From Eretmocerus hayati (taxonomy: Eukaryota > Arthropoda > Insecta > Hymenoptera > Aphelinidae): a stretch of 64,000 nt of DNA. Made by a program: the position numbers and the translations under genes. A model generated the notes under the pieces. It ran no database searches and had not been told where the DNA came from. It was given only the letters and a program-made list of their open reading frames with translations. The DNA lies in the NCBI GenBank assembly GCA_029851415.1, contig CM056743.1:30082405-30146404 (forward strand), given 5' to 3'. The first letter of the stretch is position 1. Every line of letters starts with the position of its first letter. Below are positions 703-63,671 of the stretch, one piece after another.

Positions 703-937
703 GAGTTCGTTTGTTCGTCACATAGAGAGCAGTCGCATAACCTATACCGCTTGGATGGGCAATTCGCTTCTTCTATATCTTTGGGCCGTGAAAGCCATCA
801 GTAGCAGCGAAGCACAGAATAAAAAAAGAGGAGGGGTAATTTTATCCTATCTCTTTACTTCTTCTATTTCTTCTATTAAATTATTCTAACTTCCAATCTT
901 TCTTTCTCTCATCAAATCAAATCTATAATCATTCGAC

Positions 938-2592: not shown

Positions 2593-2609
2593 TTTCTTAT
2601 TGTTACAAT

Positions 2610-18294: not shown

Positions 18295-18345
18295 TCAAAC
18301 AAACGATGAAAGGAGGGTATAGTAGGAGAATCCTGACTTCATCAA
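18295..18345 (-). CDS. odorant receptor exon 9 (C-terminal)
   Basis: The acceptor TTTTCCAG is followed by 16 codons and TGA, encoding LMKSGFSYYTLLSSFV. This short last exon, ending in SYYT-like residues shortly before the stop, is characteristic of insect odorant receptors. The intron before it is only 77 bases. Confidence 0.9.
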   Translation of the reverse strand: MMKSGFSYYTLLSSFV

Positions 18346-21300
18346 CTGGAAAATTGAATAATTATTCAGGGCAGTTCTCACGGATGAATAGTGACATCGA
18401 ATGTGAGAATCGATCGACTAACCTGGGAAAATGATTCCATGTTCAAAATTATGAGATTTCCTCCGGTCAACTGACATAGCTGCTGACTCCGCAACATAAC
18501 AAGAAGTAGTCTCCTCTTTATTTTCTCGGAAGCGAAGTACCACTTGGTACCGTAACTGTTTTTTAACAAAGATTGAGTGAGGCTAGGAACAGTAATTTGC
18601 TACGAGCCCAGTACTTATAGAACCGATTCTATCCCCACCCCTTTTCGGGTACAGGATTGAAAACAGCTTTTGAGTTCTTTCCCATTTCCTGACGTGAACC
18701 ATCGAATACGCCCGTTCACTCACGATTCTGTAACCGGAAGAGCATCGAAACGAAAACAGTCACATAACTTTCGTTCCTTTCGCCGGAACTGGAATACATT
18801 CGATATCACGTCCCATTAAGGCGATGCGATCGCTGTGCACCGCGACCATGGACCTTGAAAATATATCTTACATATAAAATTTGATTATTCGAAGTTTGAC
18901 ACAAGTTGTCGGATACTTGTTATTGTCCAACTTGTATTCCTCAATCCGTCGCTTAGCCCAAATCACAAGAAAATCGGAGAAAACTGGGAATAACTCAGAC
19001 GGGGGAACTTCCTAACCTATAATATACGCACATTTTCATTCCCAACTTTCTCCGATTCTCTTGCGATTTGGGCTCGAATCTAAGTTAGATGATGACAAGT
19101 ATTTGTGCACTCGTCATTTAGCCCAAATCGCAACAGAATCGTGGAGAAAGATGGGAATGATTTTCAGCTTGCATGATGGTGACCACATCGCCTTAAACAA
19201 CGCGAAATTTGATAGATCTGTAACTATGTTACGGGAAACAAAAAAGGAAGCTACTTTCGGTTCTGATTAGAATCCCGATAAGGAATTGGATCACGGCCGA
19301 TTAATGGCATACATTTGTAATGATGTTTATGGATGGAATGCATCTGATCAATTGGATATTTCAGTAGTGCATCAAACCAAATATTGAACATCAATAGGTT
19401 TATTCGATTATGAAGATCGGACCAGTCTGACTGATGTGACTGCGCTGATCTAACCTGACCGAACGCGCGTTCGGCGAAGTTTAGCCTGACCAAGTCAGAC
19501 CAACCACTTCCTCTTACACAAGCTCAGCTATAACTTTTCATGACAGAAATGTTGCTGTAAGGGCTCATTTCACGATTGTGGAAATAGATCTACGTCAATG
19601 CACAGGGAATTACATTCCTCGGAGTGTTTACATTAAGATAAGGTGTGGTTAAGCATCTGACGGCGGAGCAGCTGCCGCAGCTGGTCTGACTTGGTCAGGT
19701 TAAGCCATGGCCGAACGCGCGTTATGGGTCATGTTAGATCATGGCAGTCGGATCAGTCAGACCGGTCTGATCTCCATAATCGAATAAACCTAATATGAAT
19801 TGAAGCTCGTCATTTGTCCATATAAGACTATAATATTCAATCAATCTCAATTTCAATCAGACTTACCAGTCTCGTGATATATCTTCATTTGCATCTATTA
19901 ATCGCTGTCCGGGTAAGAATATGCAGAAAAAATGTAGCAAGCTAGATGTATATAAGGCTCCGTTCCTGATTCCTAATATAAAACCCTCTTGGTGACTCAA
20001 AATAACCTGCAAAGGGGAAATCATGAATTTGAGAAGAAAATGAGCATTAGATAATGGCTGAACCAAAAAGTTTTCTATAACTTCCCACGGCCCCGGTGCT
20101 TCCCGCGGCCGAGTAGCATAAACGAGAAAAATTGAACAGCAACACGCTCATGGGAATATTTCAATTTGATTTGCACATTTCGACGTACAAGCTGGATCTA
20201 GGGCTCGTTTATTCCCAACATTTCAGGAATTTCTTTGAGGGAAGGGTGAACCCAAGTTTTGGACTCTCGCCTAAAATATCATGGGGAGGGGGTTCGAAAA
20301 TCTGGTTTTTATACGTATTTTTTCGAGCTGAAAACCATGACGTAGTCGGTTTTTCAAAGAAGAAATTTTTCGACTACCATATTTATTTTCTGGCTCACAC
20401 CCCCTTCGACGGATCGCCATACCCATACGACATTCAATTCAAAACTTTCGAAAAACCAAAAGAATACTCTTTAGTTTCGATCGAAGAATTAAATTGGTTT
20501 GATGGACAAAAATGGCAAGAATCAAGGAAAAATATCACTGGGAAATCATAGGATTGTTCGGTTTTTTGAAAAAAAAAAATCCGACTTTTGCACTTTCTTA
20601 TTCACTATCTCGATGTGATTTTTCGATGTGAACTAGAAAGTATTACAAATTATGAAGATATAATTCATCGGTCTTTGCGAGTTAAAGTCAGCTGATATTG
20701 CTGACGTTTTTGGCATCAATCGAGAATAGATTCTACTCCACTCTCGATCAATGCACCTTTAGAGCCTCGTATGGTTTGGCAGAAGGCCGAAGAGCTGCCA
20801 TAGTAAAAATGTTGAGGAATCAAATGGGAATAGCGGCTTAAATTGACCTTCCTCGCAAGCGCTTATCGAAGATGAACTTTCGTATATAAGGGCGTTCAAA
20901 CCATCGAACACTCGGCCACTTGAGCCGCGTGTCAGTGGTAAACTTTCATATCTCTTCCACCACTTTGAAAAGCCCGAGCAATGAGAGAAGGGCGAAACAC
21001 GCATAATATCAGCGCAGAATCGAAATTTTTCACGAAGTTTCTCATTTCTCATCTTTACTCCTTTATTCCTTTCCATCAAAGTCCTTTAGATGCATCCCCG
21101 CAACCATACGAGGCTCTAAAGGTGCATTGATCGAGAGTAGAGTAAAATCCATTCTCGATTGATGCCAAAAACGTCAGCAATATCAGCTGACTTTAACTCG
21201 CAAAGACCGATAAATTATATCTTCATAATTTGAAATTCCCGCGAGTGATAAATACGATATCCGATCAAATCGATCTAGTGTCAAAATTAATTACATATAA

Positions 21301-24300: not shown

Positions 24301-27300
24301 GGCCCAAGTGAACCGATTTTGGCCCACGACGGCTCAAAATCTTCGTTTTGTAATGTAGTTTTCGACCCCCAAACGACGATTAAGCTCGTCCACTTTTGCA
24401 ATGTAGCGTGAATTTTTGCTTTTGGAAAATAAACCGCGTGAGGCCCTCGAAAAGCACCCTTATGTCAGCGAGGACTCCCAGTATCGTTTCAGGAGGTCTA
24501 ACCACGATGAAAACCATTGTCTGTGATGGTATTAAAAGAGAATTTACGCGGCGAAAGCCTACACTCGCCTCCGACCTAGCTATCTCACTTATCCAATTTT
24601 GCCCCCGTCCAATTTTGCCCCACTCTCCCCTATGGCCGCTCGAGGCGGGGAACATGTCCAAAATATTGGGAAAATCCATTTTTGTATGACAAAAAATGGA
24701 TTTTTGTCCCGCTTTCCCAGGAGCCAGGAAGAAGCTTTTCCAGACTGTTTGAATTTCTTCAAACAACTTCCACCCCACGCCATCTTCGCCAAATTTAAGC
24801 ACAGTATGTTGACGTCTCGGTCTACACGATCATATTTTAAAACACCATTCTTTAAATTTTTTCCAAAACGGCCTCCTTTTACTCCAATTCTACTGCCTAC
24901 TCACGATGAATCTCTATGTGCATGTGGACCATTAGAATGGGAAGAGGTGGCACAACGGTGACTTGACGAGGTACACAAGTTAAAGTATGATACGGAATTG
25001 AGAGTTGAGAAAACCATACTCCCGTAAAGAACACTCTCACTCGCGGAATACAAAATAATACAACACTCACCGTAAAAGAAATAGCTCCAACTCCTATTGT
25101 ATTCAGGATCAGTGTAATGAACCACGTGAGCGTATACGTTTCTTCAAGCACTCTAATCATCCTGAAACATTTCTCGAAAGATATATTCATTCAAGGTTCA
25201 CAGGGGAACAACCAGATATGATCCGACCCAATTATTATTATGGCCAAAAAGCAGATACTTCAGTGGTGAGGGGAGGGGGGGGGGTCTGAAGCTCTAGCTA
25301 TACCTCCACGCGTATAACACGCCAATTTCCATGAGATTATATGGGTTTCCCGTCAAATTGAGATATTTCTGCGCTGGCATTTCCAAAACAGTCGGACCTT
25401 GGCTCATTTTGTGGATTTTCTTACACCTATTCGTACTATTTGAGGTGAATTGAGGTTACCATTAGGTGAAGAACGAATCTAGAGAAAGGTTACCGGAGCA
25501 AATGAGGCAAACTGCACTTTTTTAGTATTATGGGCGTGAAGTTGGTCAGGAATCGAATGGTGCCACTCTGCAGAAAGGATTCTGCAACTAGGACGAGGGC
25601 AGAATAATGAGCTGAAGTACGTCGCGATCAATACCGTCGTTTTTGTTTGGCATAACTTTCAGTGGCTACGAAAAAAGCCAAAATTAGCAGAAACAGTATT
25701 TTTTGTCAGAAACATACAGGCCTTTTTGGATCGCTCGAAACAATCAGTTTTCCCATTCTATGGTAACAAGTATAAGAGCGATGGGCAGCAAGTTCAGTGC
25801 GTGCGTATATTCGAGATCTGGGAGGGGGGGGGGGCAAAATATAGGCAATGGTGGACACTTACCGTACCTTTTCTTTTTGGAAAAATTGAAGTACGTAATC
25901 ATAATTTTTGTTATTTTGTAAAAAAAAGTTCATGATTTGGGTCAAGGGCTCGGTTGAAGAAAATTAGAAGATCAATGTGTGACATCTGACGTGGAATTAC
26001 ACTGAAAATTATTTGATATCGATTAACCCCTCACCATAAGGCCTCGTTGTGAACATCCACTGCAGAATTCATCATTTTCACTGCGCGGGCGTGACAAGCA
26101 GAGTTTGGTGAACTGCTGATGAGATTAAGATCCATTTCCACAGCTTTTTTCACCCGAATACTGTTGAATAAATAAAACAGTCCTGAGGTGCTGACAATAT
26201 CATTATACCAGTGGAATGGCACTCGTTCGCATATCTATAAAATTCTCAAGTTCTAATGGTGAAAAACATCGAATACAACTACATCATGACTGACAAACAT
26301 AATCGCGGCTCATTCAAAGTTCTCATTGGCCTTTAGGATCCTTGAGGCTTCAATCGCTGATCACGCGAGAATAAAAAAAGAAGTTATATCATTATTATCA
26401 GTAATATGGTCATTATTATGGAATGTAGGTTCTGCAAAATGACTTTGAAAAAGGCACAGAGCATCAATAAAGAGGAAAAGGAAAATTTTCAAATCATTGC
26501 GGATTCAGTCTACTTCAGCACTCGCTGGAATTGATAAAAATGAGTCGATTGATTTTTCCTGCCAATTTCTCATTTTTGCACAGCTCATGCGACGTTTTCG
26601 GTTGTATTATTTGGCCCTCTTTGAGCTTCAGAAAAACGTCTAATATTGCGTGTGAGTCATACCAAGAGATCAAAGTGACAATTGTTTCAAGCGATAGACA
26701 GGCTAATATTATCACAAAATAATATTAACCACGATAACATCCGTGGGGAGTAATAACACAGCCCCACAGAAAAAAAGTTCTGGCCTAACTCCCAAACTAC
26801 ATCCTCAAAAATTCATGATTCTCCGAGAATGCTTGGGGTTGGTGATGAAACCATACGTTATTCTACACATATTCCATGTTATCACGATCGCTGAATCCGA
26901 ATCCGAGGTTGATTTGATCCCAGCACGTCAAGGTTCTGACATAATCTCAAAAATTCATGATTCTCCGAGAACGCTTAAAGCTGGTGATGAAACCATACGT
27001 AGTTTTGCGTTCACTCCATAAGTCTCGCGACCAGACTTTATCAAGCTCACAACTCGGGCTCTATTCTTTTTTGGAGCTATAGCGAGTCTTCTTTTCTTCG
27101 AATGACCTATGTATGGTATACCGTTGTCTCTTCCCTGGTGTTGTATCTCGTTTCAGCATTGGGCAGAAATCGACCATCACGTTTACATCCCATCTTCCTT
27201 GATAGCGAGTTTCCATCTCTTTGAGATCTTGATGAAAACGTTCGCCTTGCTCTTCACGAAAGTCTCCGACGTTTTCCGGGAATTCATCCAGATGGTCACC

Positions 27301-30300
27301 CAAAAAATGTAGCTTGAGGCGCATATTACATCCTAAAGCTTTGAAATCATTCACCATTTTTCTGACAATTTTTCCATAATTTGGACTTTTCCTATTCCCC
27401 AAAAAATTAGTCGATATCTCTTGAAACTTCTCCAAGCTGCTCCTCCAAGTGGAGTCATCACTTTGATGAAATTTGTATCTCTCAACATGGTGCGGACTTG
27501 TGGTCCATCGAAAACTTCTTGTTTTATATTCGCTTCCGATAGCTTCGGAAATGTTCTCTCAAGATATTTGTATCATTCACCATCTTTATCCAAAGCTTTC
27601 ACGAATTTTTTCTGAGGTTATGTCAGAACCTACACGATTTTGAAGTAAGTGCGAAACAAAGTACGCCCCAATCAACAGCTCCGAGTACTCTTGAGGTTAT
27701 GTCAACCTCGACATACTGGGACCCAATGGACTACGAAATTGGGTCCAGTGACCCCGAAAATATGGAGTAATTGCGAAACTACGCATGGTTTCATCGTCAA
27801 CTTCAAGCATTCTCAAAAAATCATGAATTTTTGGGGCTATGTCAGAACTTTGACGTGCTGGAACCAAATTGACCTCGGATTTGTATTCAGTGATCCCGGA
27901 AACATGGAGTAAGGGCTGAATAACGCATGGTTTCATCGCCAATCTCAAACATTCTCAAAAAAACATGATTTTTTGAGATTATCTCAGAATCTTGACGCGC
28001 TGGGACAAAATCGACCTCGGATTCGGATTCAGCGACCCCAAAACCCTATAGTTACTGATCCAAAGTGATTCTAATACGATTCAATTGTGATCCCCGAGCA
28101 AATTCTAAAAATCATGGTTTTTTGAAGGTTATGTCAAAATGCCGAAGTGCTGGGGCCAAACTGACCCCAGATCCGGATTCAGCGACCCCAAAATTGTAAA
28201 GGTAGTGTAGTTTGAGAGTTAGGTCAGAACTTTTTTTATGTGGGGCTGTGTAATAAAGATGAGATAGCTCAGTGCCATTTATAACCCCAAATATTGATTG
28301 AAGCTTAAAGCAATTATCATATTAACCGCTTAGTATGACTCACCCGCAATATTGTCATTTCTTTTAAGCTTTGACGTACGCATTAACTTCGTATTTTCTT
28401 TTTCAATCGATCCCGTGCGTTCTCACGTCATAACTACCCAATGCGCGCCGCGCTCGGTGACTACCAAACGTGTCACATCGGATGGGACTAGAATCCACAT
28501 CTCTCTGCTTGATTTCGATAATAGAAACTCAGTCTAGATCCATGTGACCCATAATAACGTTACGTGACTGCTAATTACATCAAGTGACCCATGGCGTAAG
28601 GATAACAAGGTGTGGGACCCCGAACGATTAGAACGCATCGGCTACCGCGCAGACATGGCGGCCTACGAGCGCCATCCATATTGAATTTCTAGATGTTGAA
28701 TAGAGTGCATATGTGAGTAACCGACAACCAGCTGTCGTGCCGTGTTGCTCAAATTTGCATGTAGCTCCACAAGCCCCACATCTAATATCTTGGAAATGTT
28801 ATACTGTTGTGTTGAGAATCAATGCAAGAATCTAACAGGGCCAGTCTACGATGGAAAGAAAAAGTAATTCAACCGATTTTCTCGGGCTAAGAATCTTCTG
28901 GACAGATTCATGAGAGCGTGTGGAGCATGAATGAGAATTCTAAATCCCAATATCGTCATTAAACATTGACATTCAGAGAAAATCAAATTAGTGATTAATG
29001 TGATGATCTGACCATTCTCCACCCGTTCGTATGAATGAATAAATCCGTATAGTCGTAAAACCGGTGGCAAAACACCGTGCTATGTTCATTCAAAGGTCCT
29101 GCGATGAAATCTCATTATGGCGTCGGTCGGTGGGCAAGCGAAAACGTGCGCGGTCACACACCTTGTTAATTTTACGCCATCAAGTGACCTCTAATAAAGT
29201 CACGTGACCCCTGATTACGTCACGTTACTCTTAATCACGTCACGTGGTCCCTCATTACATCGTGTGACCACTCTTTCTATCACAACCGTTTCGTTCTGAG
29301 CGTATATATAAGTCCGTGCTTCCGAGTCCACGGAGGGTCGAAAGGCCGTGAAAGTGAAAGTTGCGTAAACATTGGATTTACCTTTGGATGTGTTTCGGGG
29401 TATTCTCGTGGTCATTCTCCAACAAGGATCAAAAGAATCTGTAGAGGGGATTTGAAAGAACAACCGATTTTTCCGGATATTATCCTGTTCTTCTCAAAAA
29501 TCAAGTTCTATCGCCGTTCATATCCGTTTCTAAGACTTTTATTAACTACAAAAAATTGTTTGTGTACACTCAGTCGACGAAAAAAGTCCATACCTCACAG
29601 AATGCTTGTGATGCCAAAACTGGGATCGAATAGAATTGGATGGTTCGAATTTAATACTGAAGGAGCAGAAACAAATTTGTATGTATCATGAATCCTGCGG
29701 ATCTTCATTCCCAATCAATATACACAATGCTTGATCATCCTGGGCGGATCATCAAACATGTAATCTCGTAAATTCGCATATAGAGCCGAACGATTCCTCT
29801 GAATACTCACCGAAAGTCACTCGGTGTTCGTACTTCTGCCAATATTTATGGAAGTCGTAATTCACTGACTCAAATGCTTGTGCTTCGTATTTTTCGAGCC
29901 TGGGTCCGATCATCTTGACGTCCAACATCATGGGGCAAGCTTTATCAACAGGTCATCAAGCTTTATGAAGCTCTACAATCGAGGATTCTGTCATCTTATA
30001 GGGATTACTGAATTCATAGAGATATTACAGATAGAGGAGGGAAGAGGTGGGCCTCTCTGTAAGCGGGATTTTCTCTGCAAAAGAGAGAGAGAAAAGCCAA
30101 GGAGTTTTTTTAAGGTGGTTGTAGGGCAAATACGCTGCGACGTACGAAGGAGAGGCACCGGTCAGCCAAACACGGCTGGCCAGCACCTCCCCAACGGTCC
30201 CGGGCTGGAATCCGCATCGATACGGCCATCCGAACCGGGTAAACCCTCTCTCTCTTCCCCTTTGGCACTGACCATCGGACAAGGGAGAGATCCACCAACT

Positions 30301-42300: not shown

Positions 42301-45300
42301 CATGACGAGTCATCAAATTGAATATCTCAATATTTCCGAACAAGAGCAATCATACCGAATAAATATCGATCCAGATTCGATTATTCATGTCATGAATTTC
42401 AATCAATGCGTGTTAAATCAGAGGTCATATCAAAACTTCCATTTGTTACCTTAAATAAGAATAAATATTCATTCAATACCATTGTCGATTCATCGAATCC
42501 TAAGGATCAAACTTTCATATTGATTCAATCGATTTTACAGATGTTCATATGCAGTCGTATCATGGTTATACCAATTATTCATTCCTAGTGAATATATATT
42601 ACTGAATTCAAGGGTCAGATTCACTTATGATTATTAATAAACGTTTTGCTGAGAGCTGTACAATAAGACGATTGGAGTGGTATAAATTCGAGCTTATGAT
42701 TTGAAAATTCTTCAATATCAAAGATTGAGCTCCCAATTTAGTCCTCCAAATATCATCATCTGACCAGAGCATACATAGATATTGTGATGAAATGAATCAG
42801 ATCTCAATTAGACAGTAAATCAGTCTAAGTTGAGCGAATATACGTTGTTTTAAGAAGATAAAATGTGCTGAACCATGGAATGTTCGAACAGGAGGAATAT
42901 TCTTCCTATTTTATCGATGATTTATCACTCTGGATTGGAATATTACTCATTGGATATTTGAATTGAAGAATTGAAACTCTCATTTTGATTCAGTATTCCT
43001 TTCGAAATTCGATATGTCGTCGTCTTATATTCATACTAAATATTTAGTCATAACGAATGAATATTGCGAGATTCAAGAATCAGTTCCATTCATGATTAGA
43101 ATCTCATTTTTTGTCGAATAGTACTCAGCTCAGGACATTAAGAAACAACCCGAAATGAATCAATTCTGATAACGAAAAATATCCTCGATTTCAATGTTAT
43201 TTACATTTGCTTTTACCAGTGGAGCAATTAATGTTTGGGCTAGCTTCAGGTTGAATCTAGCCCAAACATTAATTGCTCGGTCGGTATTCACTCTCGGGGG
43301 ATGATGATCGAAACGGATTCTTAGAGCAATAAAAAAGCAATAAAAGATGGGCTAAGCCCGATTTCGAGCGGATCATCATTACTGAATGTTTGGGCTAGCT
43401 TCAGGTTGAAGCTAGCCCAAACATTAATTGCTCGGTGAGTATTCACCCTAGGGGGGTGATCGAAACGGATTCTCAGAGCAATAAAAAAGCAACAAAAGAT
43501 GGGCTAAGCCCGATGTCGATTGGATCATTATTACTCAATGTTTGGGCTAGCTTCAGGTTGAAGCTAGCCCGATTTGGATAGGCTCATTATTACTCAATGT
43601 TTGGGCTAGCTTCAGGTTGAATCTAGCCAAAACATTAATTGCTCGGTCGGTATTCACTCTAGGAGGATGATCGAAACGGATTCTAAGAGCAATAAAAAAG
43701 CAATGAAAGATAGGCTCAGCTCGATTCGTGTCGGATCATTATTACTCAATGTTTGGGCTAGCTTCAGGTTGAAGCTAGCCCAATCATTAGTTGCTCGGGC
43801 GGGTTTGCAGCAATGAATTTCGGATTGCGGCAATAAAATAGCAATCAAAAGGAATAAAATATGGCATAACTTGTTTGCGTTTGTGGAAGAATGTTTGGGC
43901 TAGCTTCATACACCCTGATAAGTCATACTCATGACCGTATGGTACAAGAGTTGCAAGAAATTGCTCGAAATTGAGCTAAGTCAGGCAGTGTGAGTCGCCA
44001 GATCTTCCACGGTGGTGAAGAATGCAATGGTAATGATCGTAAAAAGTTACTGAATGATAACATAAACCTCATAAATGGCAGAGATGAACCTCCTGTGAAG
44101 AAATATGTGGATATTCTGGGAAGTTTCGAAAAAGTCGTCAAAGCTAGTTTCGGCACAAATGTTCTTCAATATGCTAGTAAAAGAGCAAATTTTCGCGGTT
44201 GCTATTTGAAATCGTGTATTTCTGTTTTACCGAAAGTTCATGCAGTTATGTATCACATTGGAGAATTTTGTAATAGAACTGGAACTGGTCTCGGAAAGTA
44301 CAGCGAACAAGCATTCGAGTCAGTTCATCACGATTCCAGTGAAGTAGGTAAGAAATATAGAATTCATACTGCACATTCTGCTTATTCAGATCGTCTTTTC
44401 CGTGCCATATGCGAATCCAATGGATTACATGTATGATGTATTGTTCCCGCAATCGGTACAAGGATGTCAAATCCCATTCCACCCTGATGAAGATCACACG
44501 GTGAACATTTTAGGATATGAAATGAGAAGATGTAACTGTTTAGCAAGTGCGCTTTGTGACACTTGTTACATTTTGCACGAGCAAGATTTTTCTTGTTAGA
44601 AACTGATGATATGAGAGTGGTCTGTGCTTGGACAGTATTATCTTCAGAGGGCATTTCATTCGTATTGAAACAACAATTCGAACAGAATCGAATGCTCGTT
44701 TGTTATCAAACCTTTCAGAATAACTTCTCACTTATTTTCAGGATTCCAATCAAATGATGAGATAGTCTTGGGCATAACAAATATTATTGAAACACAGTGC
44801 TATGACGATACACACTCCGTCAGCATTCAGTCTATCCATGTCCACCGTTGACAATAGATACTCTTGGATTTAGCTTGAATTTTAATCATAAAAAGAGGGT
44901 TTCCTGCACTATAGTCGTCCCGAATTACTCAGATCGTATCTGAGCCTAATTTCGACCTCGGATTTCGAAAGATCGGGTCTTTTTGAGTTCGATATGGGTA
45001 CTTCGATCATTTTGAATATTCGATTTTAAAGCGAGAGACGGGAGTGAGCATGCAATGGAGGTAATCCACTGTTTCGAGAAAATGGCTAAAAAATCGAAAA
45101 ATCGACTTCAATTCGAAAACCCTCTGCCAATTTTTTCGATTCTTGTTGGAAAATATTCTACGAATGACCCCGAAACATACCCCACAGGCAAAACCCACGT
45201 ACACGCACCTCGATCTTTTTCGCCTAAATGACTCACCGAGAAGTATCATCTTCATTCGTTCTAGAAAATCAGACCGTTCATCTATTTCATCGCTCTATAC

Positions 45301-48300
45301 GAGAAGATGATCCAAAGAGACGTAGCTTTTCAATGTAATACTGAATGTAAGAAAAGAAGCAAAACATACCTGACTATCCTGAGGAGAGCGCAAGCGTGAT
45401 GAACTTGCATTATGTAAACACAGTCATGGGATAGATGTGTTAATCCCGTAACTACCATTATTACTGTTGCGTTAAGATATTCCACGTAGAATAGTTTTTC
45501 ACAATTCCATGGATGAAGAAAAGGGATAATCAGGAAAGTTCTATCAATGCTGGTTTTGTTTGAGTCCCAAATATACAGAACTGATTCCTTCACCGTCATT
45601 ATCAATCCAAAAGTGGCTACGAGTGACGATCCGAGTACTGAAAAGTGATGAATGAATTACGATGAAGAACTGTCCAAGTCTTCTATACATGAGTTGATCT
45701 ATTACGTGATAATAGAGAACCACATTTCCGCTCGGCCCGGGGCATAGAATTTTAACGAATTACTCTCGAAATTACTACTTGGCGTTTTTCAGACTAGTTT
45801 GGTGTATGAATTACTTCTTCTTTACTCATGGATGAACCAATTTTCGTGCCACATTGTCAGAGATTGCAGTAATGCATTACGTATAAAGTACTTTTAAGTT
45901 GATGACTATTCGATCAAGGGATTTGTTGGCCTCCCAAAATAACTTGGGTCTTGAATCTGATTTGAGCAACCGATTCTCCGTGGTTCATTTTCGAAGTCTA
46001 TATTCTCGTTATATGGTTAATATAAATCAAAAAATGTCGGAATTTCGCGATCTGAGCGAGTGACCCAGTTAACGGCATTATCCGTGATTTAAACAGATAA
46101 AAGGTGGCATGAAGTTTTGGGCAAAAAGTCTGATTCCAGTTTTGTCTGGGCTATTACTCTAAATCCTTAAGAGTTGAGTTCACCCCTCAGTAGGATAGAA
46201 TTTATCTCTGAGGATGGAGTAATCACGAATATCTTCAAGTCAAATTAAATTTACCTCCAGTCAGAGAGAAAAACTCATGGACTCTCTCATTACCTCGAGC
46301 CTAGAGATGGAGATACCTCTGAGCTTGACTGATTTAACGAGCTAGTCGATCAGGACAAGAACCATAACCTCCAGGGTGGAGTTCTCAAGTCTCGTCTCGA
46401 GTAATGAGCTCATATTTTTGACACGTTTATCTTGATCAAACTAAATCAAATTATAACGTCATACGGGAGTGACGCGAGCAACTCAATGCCGCCCTTGTTG
46501 CGTGATTGTCTCCTGAATTGCAGCCCATTTAGGGCCTGAATCGAATGGAGGAAGTGGAAGAAATTAATTAATTCAATATCACAAGGTCATTTCCATGCAA
46601 ATACGGGCAGATATGAAGTTGAAACCAAATATGCCCCCCCCCCCCCCAATAAGTCACTTATTTTTGTAATACTTGTACCACCATCCTTAGATCCTTCTCA
46701 GTGACAGTGAGAGACTCAAATGAGCAAATTCCATTTATATCTGGATGAAAAGTGGTTGGAAATATGAAAAACCCCGGGACGCGTATCCCCTTATTTCGTA
46801 GGGGTTATGCGGTGGTTATCTTGATTTTGACCTTGGAGGTCATTTTTAAGGTCATTTGGGTATTACTCGATTTTTTAAAATAAAGATTTCTACTTTCAAC
46901 CTTGGATTCTGAAAGAACTCGGAAAACCATGAAACGTTTGTCGAGATTATCTTTTGCTACGACTTGACCTTGGCGAGATAAATAAAGGTCAGTACGGCTT
47001 GTCGGTAACCGCTGTAGCTCCAAAAATGAGCGTTTTCTTAGGAATTCATTTGATCTAAGTTCTATAAGATCACAGTGAAAAAAAGGTTGTGGCCTTTGAT
47101 TTCCTTGGAGGTTATTCTCGAGGTCATCTGGAGGCCACCCGTATTGACCTTCATTCACTTCGCCGAGGTCAAGTCGGATCAAAGAATGACTCACGCACGG
47201 GCTAGATGGGAAAAAGTGAGCCATGAAAATGACACCAAGAACTGCGAATGTAGTCTTTTTCTAGGAGTTGAACAGATCAAGATACCGTTTTGCAGTAAAT
47301 CTAAATGTTCGAGTAGCATAGTATTGCATATTTTATGAGAAATCCTATCTAAGGTCAGTGTACCCAACTTGCTCGGCACGCCGATCTCAGAAATGGACTC
47401 TCGTTGACCTTCCCGCATATTTTTTTACGTTTGTGATCTTAAAATATGAGAAAAAAGTGGTTTGGATCGACTCCGATTAATTACTGCGTTTCCCCGAAAC
47501 TTTAAAGTGATTTTTCCATTATTCGTGTTTGCACGGCTAAGGAATCACCGAGGAAATCGCGTTCACTAAGACCGGTGCAATTCCATTTTTATTCGACCAA
47601 TTTCAACGTACCTTACCGCATTCAATTTCTTGTCTTAAGACCTTCAAAATATGCTCTGATTTGGAGCGATGCTATGTACAAAACACGGAGATGATTTGAG
47701 AAACAATAAGAAGGCCGACATCGGAGTGTACTCAACATGCTCTCATAAGTCAAATGACGAAATCTACCTAACCTTCAACTTTTGGACCATTCTGGAGAAA
47801 GAAAAAATTTTCACATTAGTCGGCGAGAGTGCGCAAGAACTTCCTTAACTCGTCCAGAAGCAGTACAGTGAAAGAATTAAACGTGGTTGAAGTGTCAATT
47901 TCTAACTTGAAATAAGTCAACAATGGATTCAGTGTGCTCGGCCCTATGCTATATACATTAGATCGAACATTCTACATTATTATGTCGAGATCGGAGAATC
48001 TGGCCCCTGCTTGATGTTCATTCTGATTCTAATCCTCATTGATCTAGGAATCCCATGTAAATCATCAGGTTAACAGACAAATGAATTTACTTCCCCGATT
48101 TTGCTCCTCGGATCTGTGGAGCTTTGTATTACTCACCTCCTCGCATTTTATATGTAAGGTAAGTGTACCCAACTTGACCCCATTAAGCCATTTTCTTAAT
48201 AACTTTGGCCCATCTCCATATTTTCCAACGTACCTTAGCTCATTTTAAAGCTTGTCTTAAGACCTCCTTTAAAATAAGTTAAGGTACATTGAATTTGAAC

Positions 48301-51300: not shown

Positions 51301-53795
51301 AAAAAGAGCTAGGAAAAATGATAATGCACTCATTTTGATATTTCCGTTATGCAGTTCAAACTGCATAGTTGGAGTAATATAATCATGTAAATGCATGGTT
51401 ATTTATCTATATTTTCTTTTCACAGAGTATGAATCAAATATAGGACACGAATAATTCTGCTGGAGAGACAAATTGATCGAAACCATTCTTTCAAACCTAT
51501 TTCTCAGAGACCGTAGTTTATCTGTGATAACTCACCTGCGTAGATAAGTACCACTACAATCCCAGAACTGCAATATTTCTTTAGTTGAAGTACTTCGCTA
51601 ACATCGGTTACCGTGGCCAAGTCAGCGAAAATTTTATCATGCAATTTTTTCCTCTGCACACATTTTACAGATGTGATCCAAAATTCCAAACAGTGAAAGA
51701 AAATTTCAATCAATCGTGGGATAGCACAGGTAGAAATGACGAATAATGGAAGAATGTCCACAAAATAAAAAAAATCGCCTGTCGTATTATATCTAACTCA
51801 AATCGACCGTCTATACACTAAATTGAGGTCTGTTAGGGTTTACCATGTCAGAATTCGTTGCTAGATGCAGAAAACTGTTTCGTTGGAATTTAAAAGAGAA
51901 TCATGAATGTGACTCACCCTATTCCGTAACAGCCGGCTCAGGACATGTTTTGCTGTAGACGCTGAGAAGAAAAGGAAGCCCGCAAATCCGTTGATACTCC
52001 TCACAATATCCCCGTTAAGATTTAGTATAATCTCCAATGTCTAGTATGGAAGATATCATTATAGACAGGGAATTGAGGACACATATACTCGGGAACGAGG
52101 TGAACATAATAGTATAATATTAATGACGGTCAGCGCCTATTCAAGATCTCCCCTCTCACTCACACCCAATGGGGTTATCTCACAAGTGCAAGGGAGACGA
52201 CAGATCTCGAACGGTCACTGAGACCGTCACAGCCATTGCAGTTCACCTTGTTCCCGAATGTATGTGTAACGTCGTTCGAGGGATGAAAGACGGAAAGAAT
52301 AGCTGACAGATAAAAAGAAAAAAAAATATGTTCAAAAAAAAAAATATGCTCGAAAAGTCAAAATATACATTAAAGCGATACGGTCGCCGTGCAATCCGGG
52401 AATTATTCTTACTTACATGAAACTCAACATTCCGACAATACAAAATTAGACACGAGTTGTCCACTACTTATTATCATCTGAACTATGGTGGAAAACTTGC
52501 CATTCGTCACCGATCACAAGAGCATCGGAGATTAATGAGTATAACTTGCCCGCGGGTACTTCCTAGCCCTTACAACAGGCACATTTTTGTTCACAAAAAT
52601 CTCAGAATCTTTTCGAATTTGGGCTAAACGAAGAGTTATCCAGGCCGAGTTAGATGATCATGAAGCCTGGATAGGTCGTCGTTTAGCCCAAATTGGATAA
52701 GATTTCGAGATTTTCGTGAACAAAGTTCATGGTGCACGGCGGCCGCACCGCCTTAAGACTTCGATGAAATGAGTGCTGAATTGAGCCCGTTTTGCGTTGA
52801 TTGCTGGACTGTCACGCAGAAGAGGGTAGAGTTACAGCGAATCTATCACCACTGTCGCCCAGTTGAACTAGCTGAGTGTATTGCTATCCTCAACCGGAAT
52901 GCGAGTGCTATCGTACGATGGGCCGCTGATAATGGTCTGAAGTTGAACTCGAAAAAAACCACCGTCATCATTCTTGGAAGTAAACCTAAACTGAAGTTCA
53001 TCGAAATTGATGATCTTCCTAAGATTGTTTTGAATTTCACAATATTTTGAATATTGTATATTCCTATTATCTCCATTAGTTTTGTATTATGATATTGCAC
53101 TGCGCGCGCTACAAATCTCGCCACAAATGCCTAATTCAACTTCTGTCATTTGCCGTACCTGCAGATATCAACATACTTTTCTGTACTTCTCTTGTACCAA
53201 TAATCGCTTCAAATAATATGTATCTACTTTTACTAATCCCGAAGAGTCTCTTGAGGTTTTACCTCCAGACTCCGATAAAATTCATTTCAATCAATCAATC
53301 AATACCATGCCGCAAAGGCTGAATGAAGAATCTCTGAACTTGTCGCATCTTTTTCTGAGCTTGATCAAAAGTTTGCCGAAGTTCAGGGGAGGTTTGATAC
53401 AATTCAGAAAAAGTTTTCGTGAGGCTTTCTCATTCTTAATGTATCTAAGAACTTATTTAAAAATCAAAGTAGGAAAATCCCGTGATAACAAAATAATTTC
53501 GACGCGGGAATGTGCTTTCTATTATGGCAATTCTATACTCGCAATAATGCGAGTAGATTTTCAGCTTTACTGTTATCGAGGTGCTCGGGTGAGCTACTTT
53601 GTTCGATGGAATGAGGAGCGATCTTGGACAGGATCAATCACTCGTTTCTAGGTTATGTTATCTTACCGCAGATATGGCACCCCCTAAGGCTATGAGAAAG
53701 ATAATCCAAAACATTATCGTTTCATTATGATATGGTGAAATTCCTTTTACGCGTTCTATGATGAGAAGTATCTTCCATGGCAGCCTCGTAGACAT
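18295..53795 (-). CDS. insect odorant receptor, 9 exons over 35.5 kb
   Basis: Seven-transmembrane ligand-binding odorant receptor of olfactory neuron membranes; such receptors work as channels with a co-receptor (family knowledge). Exons on the minus strand: 53795-53667, 52040-51918, 51653-51536, 45637-45370, 26160-26035, 25161-25071, 20006-19867, 18555-18423, 18345-18295. Every intron is GT..AG and all phases agree (0,0,1,2,2,0,2,0), giving 1,179 bases, 392 residues, the usual family length. The C-terminal half carries the family hallmarks: GQRLIDANEDI (about 318-328), CYGTKWYFAS (332-341), RRLLLVMLRSQ (346-356), LTGG, and a final LMKSGFSYYTLLSSFV. The start is the first ATG after an in-frame TGA. 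Introns are 1626, 264, 5898, 19209, 873, 5064, 1311 and 77 bases, mostly repeats. No duplicate exons exist in the window, so one gene is preferred over a mosaic of copies, but the 19-kb join (exons 4-5) lacks transcript proof. Confidence 0.85.
18423..18555 (-). CDS. odorant receptor exon 8
   Basis: 133 bases between an AACAG acceptor and a CAG/GTTAGT donor. The first base completes the Cys codon begun in exon 7. It encodes 44 residues with YGTKWYFAS, RRLLLVMLRSQ and LTGGNLIILNMESFSQ, the most conserved block of the family and the start of the last membrane segment. Confidence 0.92.
18820..19192. mobile_element. TTAA-flanked MITE, copy 1 (receptor intron 7)
   Basis: A 373-bp element begins GGCGATGCGATCGC, ends CATCGCC and is bracketed by TTAA (18816-18819 and 19193-19196). 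Internally, paired blocks around TTAGCCCAAATC and TTTCTCCGATTC give a foldback structure. A related copy is at 52374-52752. TTAA borders are typical of piggyBac and some Kolobok elements; no transposase is available to decide. Confidence 0.72.
19397..19790. mobile_element. TA-flanked foldback MITE (receptor intron 7)
   Basis: A 394-bp element begins AGGTTTATTCGATTATG and ends CATAATCGAATAAACCT, with TA on each side. Both arms repeat CTGACC..GTCAG blocks and CGAACGCGCGTT. Arms are about 100 bp and the loop about 180 bp. Confidence 0.72.
19867..20006 (-). CDS. odorant receptor exon 7
   Basis: 140 bases from the acceptor TTTGCAG to the donor TG/GTAAGT. It encodes VILSHQEG, then a hydrophobic stretch (LLHFFCIFL) and PGQRLIDANEDISRD. 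The final TG joins the T of exon 8 to give Cys. The HFF..L.GQ.L.D pattern is diagnostic for the receptor's sixth membrane segment and following loop. Confidence 0.92.
20010..20640. other. receptor intron 6, 3' part; unassigned open frame
   Basis: A 139-codon frame on the plus strand (20132-20551) is antisense to the receptor. It has no motif, signal or family resemblance that I recognise and is not called as a gene. A run of nine A lies at about 20570. Confidence 0.3.
20646..21232. mobile_element. foldback MITE with 132-bp inverted arms (intron 6)
   Basis: The left arm 20646-20777 begins CAAATTATGAAGATATAATT; the right arm 21102-21232 is its close inverted copy. The 324-bp centre is unique. 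No clear target duplication was found beside the ends. Confidence 0.78.
21240..22270. other. receptor intron 6, no further feature
   Basis: Contains an almost pure C tract at about 21601-21620 and no supported coding region. Confidence 0.4.
22277..24862. mobile_element. 2.6-kb element with 154-bp terminal inverted repeats (intron 6)
   Basis: 22277-22430 and 24709-24862 are near-identical inverted arms of equal length: TAAAGAATGGTGTTTTAAAA at the outside and CTCCTGGGAAAGCGG at the inside. Between them lies a second complete element (23403-24630) plus about 1 kb of sequence without a recognisable transposase. The 97-codon frame over the left arm mirrors one in the right arm and reflects the repeat. 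Confidence 0.72.
23403..24630. mobile_element. nested element with GGGGCAAAATTGG ends
   Basis: It starts GGGAGAGTGGGGCAAAATTG, ends with the complement (CAATTTTGCCCCACTCTCCCC) and is flanked by TA. Further copies of the GGGGGCAAATTCGGAC and GTCCGAATTCGCCCC blocks lie inside each end. The internal 1.2 kb shows no intact transposase. The end style resembles the AGGTAAGTGTACCC family but the termini differ. Confidence 0.7.
25071..25161 (-). CDS. odorant receptor exon 6
   Basis: 91 bases between a TTTCAG acceptor and an ACG/GTGAGT donor. The first G completes a Trp codon with the TG of exon 5; 30 codons follow, encoding MIRVLEETYTLTWF then ITLILNTIGVGAISFT. The LEE..T..WF..L pattern is the classic entry into the fifth membrane segment of insect odorant receptors. 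The exon ends in phase 0, matching exon 7. Confidence 0.9.
25310..25730. mobile_element. partial copy of the 8875-9655 family (intron 5 side)
   Basis: It follows 9110-9540 in the same order: CATGAGATTATA.GGGTTT, GATATCT.., GCTCATTTTGT, ATTATGGGCGT, TTTTTGTTTGGCATAACTTT and AAAAAAG. Neither end is preserved. It lies inside the 873-bp intron between exons 5 and 6, and accounts for about half of it. Confidence 0.6.
26035..26160 (-). CDS. odorant receptor exon 5
   Basis: 126 bases from the acceptor TATTCAACAG to the donor TG/GTGAGG. The first T completes the Ser codon begun by AG in exon 4. It encodes IRVKKAVEMD..., then ARAVKMMNSAVDVHNEAL. The A..H..AL segment leading directly into LEE of exon 6 is typical of this loop in the family. 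The intron upstream is the 19.2-kb repeat-filled one. Confidence 0.85.
26757..28250. mobile_element. DNA element with CACAGCCCCACA ends and 6-bp TSD
   Basis: The 1,494-bp element starts CACAGCCCCACA and ends with its complement; the inverted ends stay similar for about 45 bases. Perfect TAATAA duplications flank it (26751-26756 and 28251-28256). Subterminal repeats of roughly 140-170 bp, containing CTCAAAAATTCATGATT and GATGAAACCATACG, occur in tandem at both ends and point toward each other. The core holds the broken protein gene at 27061-27615. A 6-bp duplication with CAC-type ends does not fit the best-known superfamilies neatly, so the class is left open. Confidence 0.8.
27061..27615 (-). 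pseudogene. relic of invertebrate transposon-type protein (EQGERFHQD family)
   Basis: Reading on the minus strand from about 27615, one frame gives KKFVKALDKDGE, a stop (TGA), then YKYLERTFPKLSEA and FDGPQVRTMLRD; near 27400-27425 the match shifts to another frame, which runs FKALGCNMRLKLHF, EQGERFHQD, METRYQGRWDV and ends at 27061. I recognise this order of motifs from a widespread uncharacterised protein found in many copies in arthropod and cnidarian genomes; its function is unknown to me. One stop and one frameshift make this copy dead. Its position inside an element with inverted ends and target duplications suggests the protein belongs to that kind of element. Confidence 0.7.
28257..29365. 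repeat. two small 20-bp minisatellites and spacer
   Basis: Units of 20 bases on the pattern CACGTGACCCCTAATTACGT occur about three times at 28541-28600 and about four to five times at 29186-29272, both in the plus orientation. Several units contain CACGTG. The 600 bp between has no supported gene. Confidence 0.65.
29370..29490 (+). repeat. dispersed repeat A, fragment
   Basis: It shares GTTTCGGGGT, CATTCTCCAACAAG and AATC..TAGAGGG with the longer copies at 32995-33345 and 44880-45245. Only the middle of the family is preserved. Confidence 0.5.
30105..30500 (-). mobile_element. 3' end relic of an R1-clade LINE
   Basis: On the minus strand it carries CCTGAAGTAATGCTCACG followed by CGGTGCCGGGG, matching the start of the 3' region of the young LINE at 54132-56860 (CCTGAAGTAATGCTAACG, CGGTTCCGGGG). 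Upstream, GCGCGAGACGCC also matches, and a purine-rich run (about 30400-30500) fits the charged C-terminal coding end. A short A7 at 30111-30105 may be the old tail. The remainder of the 3' region has diverged. Confidence 0.5.
30500..31325. repeat. CT/GA-rich low complexity with a hairpin
   Basis: 30608-30660 and 30699-30757 are inverted arms rich in TCTCTC/GAGAGA with GCGCGA and GCGCAGT cores; they form a GC-rich hairpin with a loop of about 38 bp. CT-rich runs surround it. No gene is seen. Confidence 0.6.
31330..31500 (-). repeat. dispersed repeat A, fragment
   Basis: The reverse complement shares the block running from the acceptor-like GGTGCGT through GGTTTTTC, ATGTTTTAGGGTG and TTTTCCAATGAGAATC with the copies at 32995-33345 and 44880-45245. 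In translation the resemblance to the 44880 copy is also visible, but this does not imply a gene. Confidence 0.5.
31505..32985. other. no recognised gene; GC-richer patch
   Basis: 31800-32150 is clearly richer in GC than its surroundings and has short open frames, none longer than about 100 codons and none recognisable. It could be an old coding fragment of a mobile element. Nothing is seen in the rest. Confidence 0.35.
32995..33345 (+). repeat. dispersed repeat A, longest plus-strand copy
   Basis: It begins AAGTCACGGTGAGTCATTTA, passes GGGGTATGTTTTGGGGTCAT, TCGATTTTTCGATTTTTTAG and ACTATAGTGCAGGAAA, and matches the inverted copy at 44880-45245 along its whole length. The two lie on opposite sides of the palindrome and of the satellite blocks. 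Confidence 0.7.
33463..33560 (+). repeat. short AAGATTATT tandem repeat
   Basis: Units of 10-13 bases such as AAGATTATTTC, AAGATTATTCT and AAGATTATCAT are repeated about eight times, merging into AAGGTTTTT units. Confidence 0.6.
33695..35870 (+). repeat. higher-order satellite, 152/129-bp units
   Basis: Successive ACCGAGCAAT landmarks lie at 34131, 34283, 34412, 34564, 34716, 34845, 34997, 35149, 35278, 35430, 35559 and 35711, spaced 152 or 129 bp. The pattern 152-129-152 recurs as a 433-bp higher-order unit. The 152-bp unit contains a palindrome (GCTAGCTTCAACCTGAAGCT); the 129-bp unit has lost 23 bp there. The left end carries an AAACGCAAACAA segment shared with the far end of the inverted block at 43215-43925. 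A small MITE interrupts it at 33940-34090. Confidence 0.9.
33940..34090. mobile_element. MITE inserted in satellite, 5-bp TSD CTAAG
   Basis: A 151-bp hairpin begins GCTGGAATTCATAGTC, ends GACTATGAATCCGAGC and is flanked by CTAAG on both sides (33935-33939 and 34091-34095). Other satellite units have a single uninterrupted CTAAG at this point, so the borders are certain. Arms of about 55 bp carry TCGGCGGAT and CGCTGCGAT. Confidence 0.8.
35875..36177. other. spacer between satellite and palindrome
   Basis: About 300 bp without a recognised repeat or gene. A 109-codon plus-strand frame starts here and runs slightly into the palindrome; it has no recognised motif. Confidence 0.4.
36178..40190. 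repeat. near-perfect palindrome, 1,837-bp arms, 8-bp spacer
   Basis: Left arm 36178-38345 and right arm 38354-40190 are reverse complements about the spacer TCCCATGG (38346-38353). Once the 328-bp MITE and its extra TTA are removed from the left arm, both arms are exactly 1,837 bp. Only a few substitutions were noticed, for example CCACCG/TCACCG-type changes near 36560 and two bases near 36236. Open frames of 106, 95, 84, 81, 67 and 66 codons appear twice, once in each arm; none is recognised, and they are not called as genes. A segment of the arm (about 39210-39560) is related to 61600-62170. Confidence 0.92.
37889..38216. mobile_element. TTA-flanked MITE in left palindrome arm
   Basis: A 328-bp foldback begins CCAGGAGAGGTCATCACATC and ends GATGTGATGACCTCTCCTGG, flanked by TTA (37886-37888 and 38217-38219). 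The right palindrome arm has the empty site, with a single TTA equivalent (38480-38482 on the plus strand as TAA), proving borders and duplication. A 3-bp TTA duplication fits PIF/Harbinger-type elements. The centre (AGCATTGCCCATATAGG..., AATGCTAATGTC) resembles the element at 63308-63635, also 328 bp. Confidence 0.88.
40200..41667 (+). mobile_element. 5'-truncated Penelope-like element with inverted terminal repeats
   Basis: A coding remnant of a Penelope reverse transcriptase and GIY-YIG endonuclease lies between inverted repeats (about 40200-40382 and 41489-41667). Penelope-like elements are known for terminal repeats in direct or inverted order. Both repeats contain a hammerhead-ribozyme-like core: on the plus strand of the right repeat CTGATGA, a hairpin GTCCAC/GTGGAC, then GAAAC (about 41539-41572); the left repeat has it in reverse. 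The element begins about ten bases beyond the palindrome's right end. Confidence 0.85.
40384..41248 (+). pseudogene. Penelope RT C-terminus plus GIY-YIG endonuclease, frameshifted
   Basis: The frame is open from the inner edge of the left repeat and reads FIHEIENNNTINFLDIS and NWYQKPTSSGRILNF, the end of the Penelope reverse transcriptase. It continues to the endonuclease: GVVYKFQCKDC, TYVGETKRQLGTRINHH. Near 41119-41125, a run of seven A, the frame shifts: one frame stops at 41139 and the natural C-terminus (LISEMIHIKF, YNPLW) continues in the other to 41248. The palm and fingers of the polymerase are missing, so this is a dead 5'-truncated copy. Confidence 0.85.
41668..43214. other. AT-rich spacer, one unassigned minus-strand frame
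   Basis: A minus-strand frame at 41715-41978 (87 codons) reads as plausible protein (GVQTHDAVGITASYLTSG) but I recognise no family and see no flanking splice sites that would attach it to the receptor. The rest is strongly AT-rich with nothing else supported. Confidence 0.3.
43215..43925 (-). repeat. inverted block of the 152-bp satellite
   Basis: About four units of the same satellite as 33695-35870 in the opposite orientation (TTGGGCTAGCTTCAGGTTGA, TTGCTCGGTCGGTATTCAC). The outer end near 43800-43920 carries the same non-repeated border segment (AAATTCATTGCTGCAAACCC and GCAAACAA in reverse) as the left end of the plus-strand block. Units here are more irregular than in the larger block. 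Confidence 0.85.
43940..44436 (+). pseudogene. relic of an invertebrate transposon-type protein
   Basis: The frame open to 44436 contains RQIFHGGEECNGND, then SVLPKVHAVMYHIGEFC, GLGKYSEQAFESVHHD and a short charged C-terminus ending LFRAICESNGLHV before a natural stop. I know this motif series from repetitive, uncharacterised proteins of many invertebrates; the function is not known to me. Upstream, MVQELQEIAR and EIELSQAV lie in other frames, so at least two indels have broken it near 43970-43990. It abuts the end of the inverted satellite block. Confidence 0.6.
44880..45245 (-). repeat. dispersed repeat A, inverted copy
   Basis: Reverse complement of 32995-33345 over its length, with moderate divergence: TTTCCTGCACTATAGTCG, TCGAAAAATCGACTTCAATT and CCCGAAACATACCCCA. 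It lies 125 bases beyond the donor end of receptor exon 4, inside intron 4. Confidence 0.7.
45370..45637 (-). CDS. odorant receptor exon 4
   Basis: 268 bases from the acceptor CACTTTTCAG to the donor CAG/GTATGT. The TA at its start completes a Val codon with the G of exon 3; the AG at its end needs the T of exon 5. It encodes LGSSLVATFGLIM (third membrane segment), the loop with RTFLIIPFLHPWNCE, and YVEYLNATVIMVVTGL...DCVYIMQVHHACALLRIV (fourth segment). The P..PWN..K...Y...Y and H..ALLR patterns are those of insect odorant receptors. Confidence 0.9.
45640..46800. other. receptor intron 3, no gene seen
   Basis: No supported coding region; an almost pure C tract lies at about 46635-46648. Confidence 0.45.
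46808..47190 (-). repeat. single inverted unit of the GACCTCCAAGGTCA repeat
   Basis: In reverse complement it shares CTTTCAGAATCCAAGGT, AAATGACCTT and GACCTCCAAGGTCAAAA with the tandem units at 49480-50090. Confidence 0.55.
47351..47770. mobile_element. partial copy of the AGGTAAGTGTACCC family
   Basis: It begins CTAAGGTCAGTGTACCCAAC and follows the same order as 11857-12370, including CGGAGATGATTTG, CGACATCGGAGTGTAC and AACATGCTC. The far end is missing. It lies 0.4 kb from the complete copy. Confidence 0.6.
48157..49111. mobile_element. complete TA-flanked AGGTAAGTGTACCC element
   Basis: 955 bp starting AGGTAAGTGTACCCAACTTG and ending GTACACTTACCT, with TA at 48155-48156 and 49112-49113. 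Subterminal blocks TTGCCCCCATTAAG and TATGGGGGCAAGTTGGGT recur near both ends. No intact transposase. It lies in receptor intron 3. Confidence 0.78.
49480..50090 (+). repeat. two tandem units of about 265 bp
   Basis: Blocks at 49674-49775 and 49937-50047 match in order: GATCA.AATGTTT, TTTTCCACGTTCCTTCAGAATCC-like text, then TGACCTTG/TGACTTTG and CCAAGGTCAAAAACAAG. The array ends at a C tract (about 50094-50107). Confidence 0.55.
50110..51530. repeat. receptor intron 3, relic of the 372-689 repeat family
   Basis: 50280-51065 shares ordered blocks with the first 660 bases of the window (TTGCTATTGGA, TTTTGCACCAGA, GGGTCTTG..GAGGGTCCCG, GCGATTTCGCCT). The two open frames here (144 and 111 codons) match nothing I recognise. 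Confidence 0.45.
51536..51653 (-). CDS. odorant receptor exon 3
   Basis: 118 bases from the acceptor TGTGTGCAG to the donor GCAG/GTGAGT. It encodes RKKLHDKIFADLATVTD..EVLQLKKYCSSGIVVVLIYA. A basic stretch, then a D...D..E...L.KY pattern leading into a membrane segment, is the usual second-loop organisation. An earlier acceptor near 51780 would be open too, but it does not match the phase of exon 2. Confidence 0.87.
51918..52040 (-). CDS. odorant receptor exon 2
   Basis: 123 bases, 41 codons, phase 0 at both ends, between ATCTTCCATACTAG and AGG/GTGAGT. It encodes TLEIILNLNGDIVRSINGF, the hydrophobic AGFLFFSAS and KHVLSRLLRNR, which runs directly into the basic start of exon 3. The 264-base intron to exon 3 is the only other short one besides the last. 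Confidence 0.85.
52086..52260. mobile_element. TA-flanked hairpin MITE, copy 3 (intron 1)
   Basis: It begins TACTCGGGAACGAGG, ends CCTTGTTCCCGAATG and is flanked by TA. Related to copies 1 and 2 but with an altered left arm (a TAATAGTATAATATTAATG block replaces conserved bases). It sits 45 bases beyond exon 2. Confidence 0.72.
52374..52752. mobile_element. TTAA-flanked MITE, copy 2 (intron 1)
   Basis: TTAA at 52370-52373 and 52753-52756 bracket an element with ends AGCGATACGGTCGCCGTGCA and CGGCCGCACCGCC. Internal TTTGGGCTAAACGA and GTTTAGCCCAAATT blocks pair, as in copy 1 at 18820-19192. Confidence 0.72.
52836..53306 (+). mobile_element. LINE reverse transcriptase fragment with TCAA-repeat tail
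   Basis: The frame reads HHCRPVELAECIAILN, AIVRWAADNGLKLNSKKT and VIILGSKPKLK, the segment after the catalytic YADD of Jockey/CR1-like LINEs. The catalytic motif itself is absent. About 270 bases on, the copy ends in ATCAATCAATCAAT, a short tandem tail of the kind some LINEs leave. It is antisense to the receptor in intron 1. Confidence 0.65.
53310..53666. other. receptor intron 1, remainder
   Basis: A plus-strand frame of 114 codons (53307-53651) has no recognised motif. The intron's GTAAGA donor is at its right edge. Confidence 0.4.
53667..53795 (-). CDS. odorant receptor exon 1 (start)
   Basis: ATG at 53795 is the first after an in-frame TGA two codons upstream. The 43 codons read MSTRLPWKILLIIERVKGIS, PYHNETIMFWIIFLIALGG and AISA, ending GCG/GTAAGA in phase 0. 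A short N-terminus of about 25 residues before the first membrane segment suits the family, whose N-terminus is cytoplasmic. An additional upstream non-coding exon cannot be excluded. Confidence 0.82.
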
Positions 53796-54117
53796 GATTC
53801 ACTCAAGTGTCGACAAATTCATTCAAGTCGGTGAGAATTTCGTGAAAGGCATCCAGAGAATGACTGAATTAGAATATCAACGGTCCCAAGATCAAGTCCT
53901 TATTCTTGGTGTAGTGTCATCCAAGTCAACGGTGAAAATCTGTAAATATTCGTGATTAGAATTTTCGTTACATTAATGGGCCAGTTTGCGATAACTCAGC
54001 CAGCTCCGTTCCAGAGACTATATTTGGAGACCCAACCCTTTCTCCGTTTGTAGGACACATAGCTGGTCATATATGACCACAATTTAGTCGGGAACATGCC
54101 GGTATAGATATATGAGT
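53796..54117 (-). promoter_or_regulatory. receptor upstream region, cut short by LINE insertion
   Basis: Only about 320 bases separate the receptor ATG from the left border of the R1-clade LINE. Promoter elements of the receptor should lie here or beyond the LINE. No TATA box or initiator could be assigned with confidence. Confidence 0.35.
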
Positions 54118-56451: not shown

Positions 56452-56799
56452 CGAACAACGACGACTTGAAGAGTGATCATTGACGACGAAGAGAGAAAAC
56501 AGAAGAGCGGACACACCGAAGAGGGACGCCTCATGGCGCGCGATACGCCTCCCATCCTGAAGTAATGCTAACGCGGTTCCGGGGTGGGTTGGTTAGATAG
56601 TGGTTGGCTGCCCCCAGTTCTGCAATGATGGCTTGCCAACATCGTAGGGCTGAGAGCAGAAGGTTTTAGCCCCCAGGGCACACGGGCGTTGGATTCATGC
56701 TCATCCGGTTTACCGGGTGAGCAAAATGAAAGCGCTTATGGTCTGCCGGTGGGAGATCCATTAGGGATAGCCTGTCATCAGATTTTTCCTTATATTCCA

Positions 56800-56860
<61 letters not shown>
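54132..56860 (+). mobile_element. young 5'-truncated R1-clade LINE
   Basis: It runs from a truncated ORF2 through a 350-bp 3' region (56452-56802) to 59 uninterrupted A, flanked by a perfect 14-bp duplication. Perfect duplication, pure long A tail and an unbroken reading frame indicate a recent insertion. GC content is well above the surroundings. The endonuclease region is lost. R1 elements usually insert in rRNA genes; relatives such as TRAS and SART target telomeric repeats. The flanks here are neither, so this lineage or copy is not site-specific in the usual sense. Confidence 0.9.
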
Positions 56861-56864
<4 letters not shown>

Positions 56865-63300: not shown

Positions 63301-63307
63301 TAACTTA

Positions 63308-63635: not shown

Positions 63636-63671
63636 TTAGTGCTTTTGTGTTCTGAGTGCTCACTAGTAGTA

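Follow-up and report, generated by a model that had tools for sequence, protein, structure and literature searches.

A single gene, very probably encoding a tuning odorant receptor of the 7tm_6 family in nine small exons whose introns have been enlarged by mobile elements and satellites, lies on the minus strand of the window, the whole stretch of 64,000 nucleotides of Eretmocerus hayati DNA analyzed here. A tuning odorant receptor (OR) contributes a subunit of seven helices to an odour-gated channel, its partner being Orco. On this model, a pre-mRNA of about 35 kb would be spliced from nine small exons to give a 392-residue membrane protein, and, by analogy with the family, this protein and Orco would together make up a cation channel opened by odours in the neurons of the antenna; we infer the expression, the Orco partnership, the ligand and the history of the introns. 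The long introns would entail a long transcription time and a reliance on correct splicing, and no special mechanism would be needed.

The gene model was rebuilt from the sequence and runs from position 53795 to position 18295 on the minus strand. Its exons are as follows.

53667 to 53795, minus strand: exon 1, 43 residues, with the start ATG and the first hydrophobic segment; the least certain exon
51918 to 52040, minus strand: exon 2, 41 residues; the Pfam alignment begins within it, at residue 67
51536 to 51653, minus strand: exon 3; a hydrophobic segment (residues 116-134) spans the junction of exons 3 and 4
45370 to 45637, minus strand: exon 4, the longest, 268 bp
26035 to 26160, minus strand: exon 5, no family match alone
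25071 to 25161, minus strand: exon 6, no 7tm_6 match alone
19867 to 20006, minus strand: exon 7, no family match alone
18423 to 18555, minus strand: exon 8, the strongest family signal
18295 to 18345, minus strand: exon 9, holding the TGA stop; too short to be scanned alone

An earlier note on this DNA had proposed nine minus-strand exons, none longer than 268 bases, with consistent GT/AG borders and phases and 392 residues free of stops, and the rebuilt model agrees with it, both end coordinates being exact to the base. The coding sequence of 1,179 bp gives 392 residues and a TGA stop with no internal stop, all eight introns have GT/AG borders, and the intron phases are 0-0-1-2-2-0-2-0. The introns, in order 1626, 264, 5898, 19209, 873, 5064, 1311 and 77 bp long, sum to 34,322 bp. 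Splice sites were ranked by a crude score, at sites that had not been chosen blind. All eight donors fall within the top 1.3% of the 3,268 GT sites on the minus strand, and five of the eight acceptors within the top 8% of 3,570 AG sites; the other three, which lie between the top 18% and 36%, are ordinary by this score and are counted against the model. The 995 bases after the stop codon contain no AATAAA, and ATTAAA occurs downstream of the stop at two sites (17780 and 17694).

The joined protein matches Pfam 7tm_6 (PF02949) at 82.3 bits, against a cut-off of 25.8 (E 4.2e-23), in one continuous stretch that covers residues 67-380 and positions 14-311 of the 313 in the profile. This alignment of the joined translation was one of the checks that the earlier note had called for, and together with matches to insect odorant receptors and Orco among Protein Data Bank (PDB) sequences it bears out the proposed identity. 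In the PDB search, 14 rows fall at E <= 1, of which 11 belong to insect odorant receptors or Orco and the other three to somatostatin receptor type 3 (E 0.086-0.16). The best match is 8v00_D, "Odorant receptor OR10" (E 9.7e-10, query residues 193-389), OR28 (8v3c_D) is matched at E 1.9e-6 over query residues 173-390, and several Orco chains are matched in the C-terminal region, from E 1.1e-9. The similarity to PDB sequences sits mostly in the C-terminal part, and the kinship with OR10 and OR28 is distant, the N-terminal part of the receptor having no detectable alignment with them. When residues 1-255 were searched alone, seven rows appeared up to E 10, Orco accounting for four (the best at E 0.048) and somatostatin receptor 3 for three (E 0.078 among them), and residues 1-134 gave no odorant receptor in the PDB, the best of two rows being at E 1.1. 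Receptors of this family have about 400 residues and seven membrane helices. The hydropathy profile of the 392 residues here has seven hydrophobic peaks of at least 1.0, but the presumed fourth helix takes up two of them, and no peak falls where the seventh helix is expected.

Searches of a large protein collection (no relative at E <= 0.001 among 7,293 candidates) and of viral contigs (nine pattern matches, none encoding a relative of the receptor) do not bear on the identity, because insects may be scarce or absent in both collections. According to excerpts of PMC6080948, Orco has an expanded intracellular loop 2 with a TKKQ motif. The C-terminal region of the present protein resembles that of Orco, whereas the TKKQ motif is absent from its 392 residues and the Orco chains in the PDB, among which we include 6c70_A, listed simply as "Odorant receptor", have 463-495. 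On sequence similarity, the assignment of the joined protein to the insect odorant receptors of the 7tm_6 family is supported, and nothing unusual relative to these receptors was found in the protein sequence itself.

The contribution of each exon was judged by scanning exons singly, by leaving one out at a time, and by reordering. Eight exons were scanned singly against Pfam, exon 9 being left out, and 7tm_6 matched two of them. Exon 4 stayed under the cut-off with 14.5 bits; exon 8 alone exceeded it, with 33.9 bits, which indicates that the conserved C-terminal part is present. Exon 6, and exons 2 and 3 joined, gave weak unrelated Pfam matches and nothing else. Removal of exon 8 lowered the 7tm_6 score from 82.3 to 33.1 bits (a loss of 49.2), and removal of exons 4, 5, 6 and 7 lowered it to 57.7, 56.6, 67.5 and 56.4 bits (losses of 24.6, 25.7, 14.8 and 25.9), losses that overstate an inner exon's own share because removal also brings a gap cost. 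Without exon 9 the score was 78.4 bits (a loss of 3.9), and without exons 2 and 3 it was 80.9 and 82.2 bits (losses of 1.4 and 0.1), while without exon 1 it rose by 1.4 to 83.7 bits. Of three reorderings of the exons, one was scanned; it scored 34.5 bits, about as much as exon 8 alone. The leave-one-out and reordering scans therefore support exons 4 to 8 in their order, and the earlier argument that the agreement of the exons goes beyond chance holds when 82.3 bits in order are set against that reordered score. From the 7tm_6 profile, exon 9 gains a little backing and exons 1 to 3, at no more than 1.4 bits, are not supported.

These scans also qualify the statement that ordinary open reading frame (ORF) scanning shows nothing here. 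Exon 4 lies within a 108-residue stop-to-stop ORF (45330-45656) and exon 8 passes the Pfam cut-off alone, so that ordinary scanning does not come up empty and the description of the gene as hidden was overstated. An ORF list would pass over the gene, and a scan for the family in all six frames ought to detect it.

That the model is complete, candidate exon 1 and its start codon included, is plausible; completeness is likely but unproven because exons 1 to 3 add at most 1.4 bits. We infer that coding begins in exon 1. The gene could be real and its modelled 5' end mistaken, with one or more genuine first exons elsewhere or other borders for exons 1 to 3, a reading which is compatible with the main explanation and to which we give a smaller yet appreciable chance. 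The higher score without exon 1, the small cost of removing exon 2 or 3, and the failure of residues 1-134 to match any odorant receptor in the PDB speak for such an error. The N-terminal part of odorant receptors is poorly conserved, however, and low Pfam scores at the N-terminal exons are expected for that reason. Exon 1 is, moreover, the sole candidate on the minus strand across the 12 kb upstream (64000-52041) to pass a simple filter for 5' exons that required a start codon, a phase-0 donor and hydrophobicity and that covered phase 0 alone and had been set in knowledge of exon 1. Applied to the whole strands, this filter passed three candidates on the minus strand, exon 1 included, and none on the plus strand. 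The best 17-residue hydropathy mean in exon 1 is 2.38. Two codons before the ATG there is a stop in the same frame, which also tells against a misplaced 5' end.

Over half of the gene span is intron 4. Self-repeats of the window (blastn, at least 50 bp) cover 12,284 of the 34,322 intron bases and none of the 1,179 exon bases, and 8,794 bp of intron 4 recur elsewhere in the window. The main features of this intron are listed here.

26161 to 45369, minus strand: intron 4, 19,209 bp
32991 to 45241, no strand assigned: outer pair of inverted arms at about 32991-33351 and 44876-45241 (86-88%)
34091 to 35873, no strand assigned: satellite-like tandem array with periods of 129, 152, 281 and 433 bp
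36159 to 40209, no strand assigned: palindrome whose arms (36159-37888 and 38480-40209) are 99% complementary and separated by 591 nt
40369 to 41139, plus strand: GIY-YIG ORF, PF01541 at 24.2 bits against a cut-off of 22.6

The palindrome arms are 99.77% identical over 1,711 bp in the self-alignment, and a palindrome with arms of 1.7 kb points either to an inverted duplication of very recent date or to a fault of the assembly. A related satellite-like array of 129- and 152-bp units lies inverted at 43230-43802. The outer inverted arms may mark the two ends of a single composite mobile element of about 12 kb, for which no convincing target-site duplication was found at the arms, and the GIY-YIG ORF may be the remnant of a Penelope-like element. 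Near this ORF, two inverted stretches of 182 bp (40200-40381 and 41488-41667) share 94.5% identity. Two further ORFs in intron 4, at 27061-27558 on the minus strand (165 aa) and 43975-44436 on the plus strand (153 aa), matched no Pfam family at E <= 0.1; they presumably resemble proteins of mobile elements. The introns of the receptor, above all intron 4, would have been enlarged by the insertion of mobile elements and satellites, and the small coding pieces would lie scattered over 35 kb because such repeats had swelled the introns between them.

An intron of 19 kb filled with repeats, in which a 99% palindrome could be an assembly problem, raises the possibility that exons 1 to 4 and exons 5 to 9 are remnants of two receptors that have been joined, or a misassembly. 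We regard this as very improbable, since the intron phases agree on both sides of intron 4 and the Pfam match is continuous over the junction of exons 4 and 5. An alignment to Orco also runs ungapped across residues 212/213, although the match there is weak (14.2 bits, i-Evalue 0.17), and no leftover duplicate exon was seen in the window. With the receptor protein as query, tblastn returned the nine exons as the nine best matches in the window (at least 40.0 bits each), the next being at 21.6 bits (E 2.6), and showed no second set of OR exons there, a search by which a distant paralogue could be missed. The compatible phases, the continuous Pfam match, the single set of exons and the scores lost with exon 4 or exon 5, part of which is gap penalty, together support the conclusion that the exons on both sides of intron 4 belong to one gene.

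Upstream of exon 1 lies a retroelement.

54088 to 56861, plus strand: retroelement remnant with a reverse-transcriptase ORF (54088-56451) and a run of 59 A bases (56803-56861)

The ORF matches PF00078 at 77.3 bits and shows no endonuclease domain in Pfam. It begins 293 bp upstream of the receptor ATG, and the promoter region is therefore invaded or short. The true 5' end of the element was not located, no word of more than 7 bases being shared with the far flank, and no convincing target-site duplication was found. Such an element beside the start codon may have cut off the promoter, so that the gene would be a recently silenced one, a reading compatible with the gene model; the small distance to the ATG and the pure A run at the far end, which suggests a young insertion, would fit it. 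We consider it improbable, as the coding sequence and the splice sites are intact, a short proximal promoter could fit between the ATG and the element, and the 5' boundary of the element was not pinpointed. It is more speculative still, and most improbable, that the inverted repeats of intron 4 (the arms at 32991-45241) fold within the pre-mRNA and draw exons 4 and 5 together for splicing while the retroelement has replaced or altered the promoter, which would place the receptor under control derived from mobile elements.

The window as a whole is rich in mobile DNA. It has 51 stop-to-stop ORFs of 100 aa or more; 17 of them were scanned with Pfam, and four of these passed a cut-off, all with domains of mobile elements. 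One further element is the following.

929 to 6491: non-LTR element, with an endonuclease ORF (2819-3298) and a reverse transcriptase/RNase H ORF (3234-6491) in overlapping frames, by Pfam

The ORFs at 929-2023, 1954-2592 and 2589-2909 matched no family and were placed in this element by position alone. Self-complementary stretches lie at both ends of the window (1-371, 79%; 63303-63640, 78%) and are perhaps hairpin-type mobile elements. An Rfam search of the window at gathering thresholds gave no matches, and ARAGORN, run with the bacterial code, found no genes in it.

The ratio of intron to coding sequence had been put at about 29:1 and called extreme for the family; the measured value is 29.1, while the second part is unsupported because OR genes with long introns, from 14 kb up to at least 55 kb in size, have been published, according to excerpts of PMC6080948. 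There, OR genes of the firebrat (Thermobia domestica) contained within single scaffolds span 14-43 kb with long introns, and Orco spans at least 55 kb; the receptor described here falls within this size range and resembles these genes in its large extent and long introns, which are thus known elsewhere among the insect receptors of PF02949. Excerpts of PMC9147661 give 9.7 kb, maybe a sum per gene, as the greatest intron length among the ORs of the green peach aphid, and the present receptor exceeds it.

The intron phases can also be compared with published models. The last four OR introns are inferred to be ancestral with phases 2-0-0-0 in the excerpts of PMC6080948, and the Thermobia domestica receptors end in this way, whereas the receptor here ends 2-0-2-0, with phase 2 between exons 7 and 8. 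The ancestral ending is no requirement, and models such as that of ant OR subfamily I1, given in excerpts of PMC4549895 with seven exons and phases 002020, have been published. The last four phases of I1 are the same as those found here in a gene of nine exons with phases 00122020. The 2-0-2-0 ending fits a hymenopteran receptor, the likeness being one of intron phases. Nine exons alone do not place the receptor in the hymenopteran 9-exon OR subfamily.

The earlier observation was correct and careful, with the 5' end unproven, and the receptor gene itself is ordinary, OR genes of such size being already known in the family. It provides a clean example of how automatic annotation could fragment a receptor gene where mobile elements enlarge its introns, and since annotation may break at such introns, the number of odorant receptors counted in repeat-rich insect genomes may be too low.
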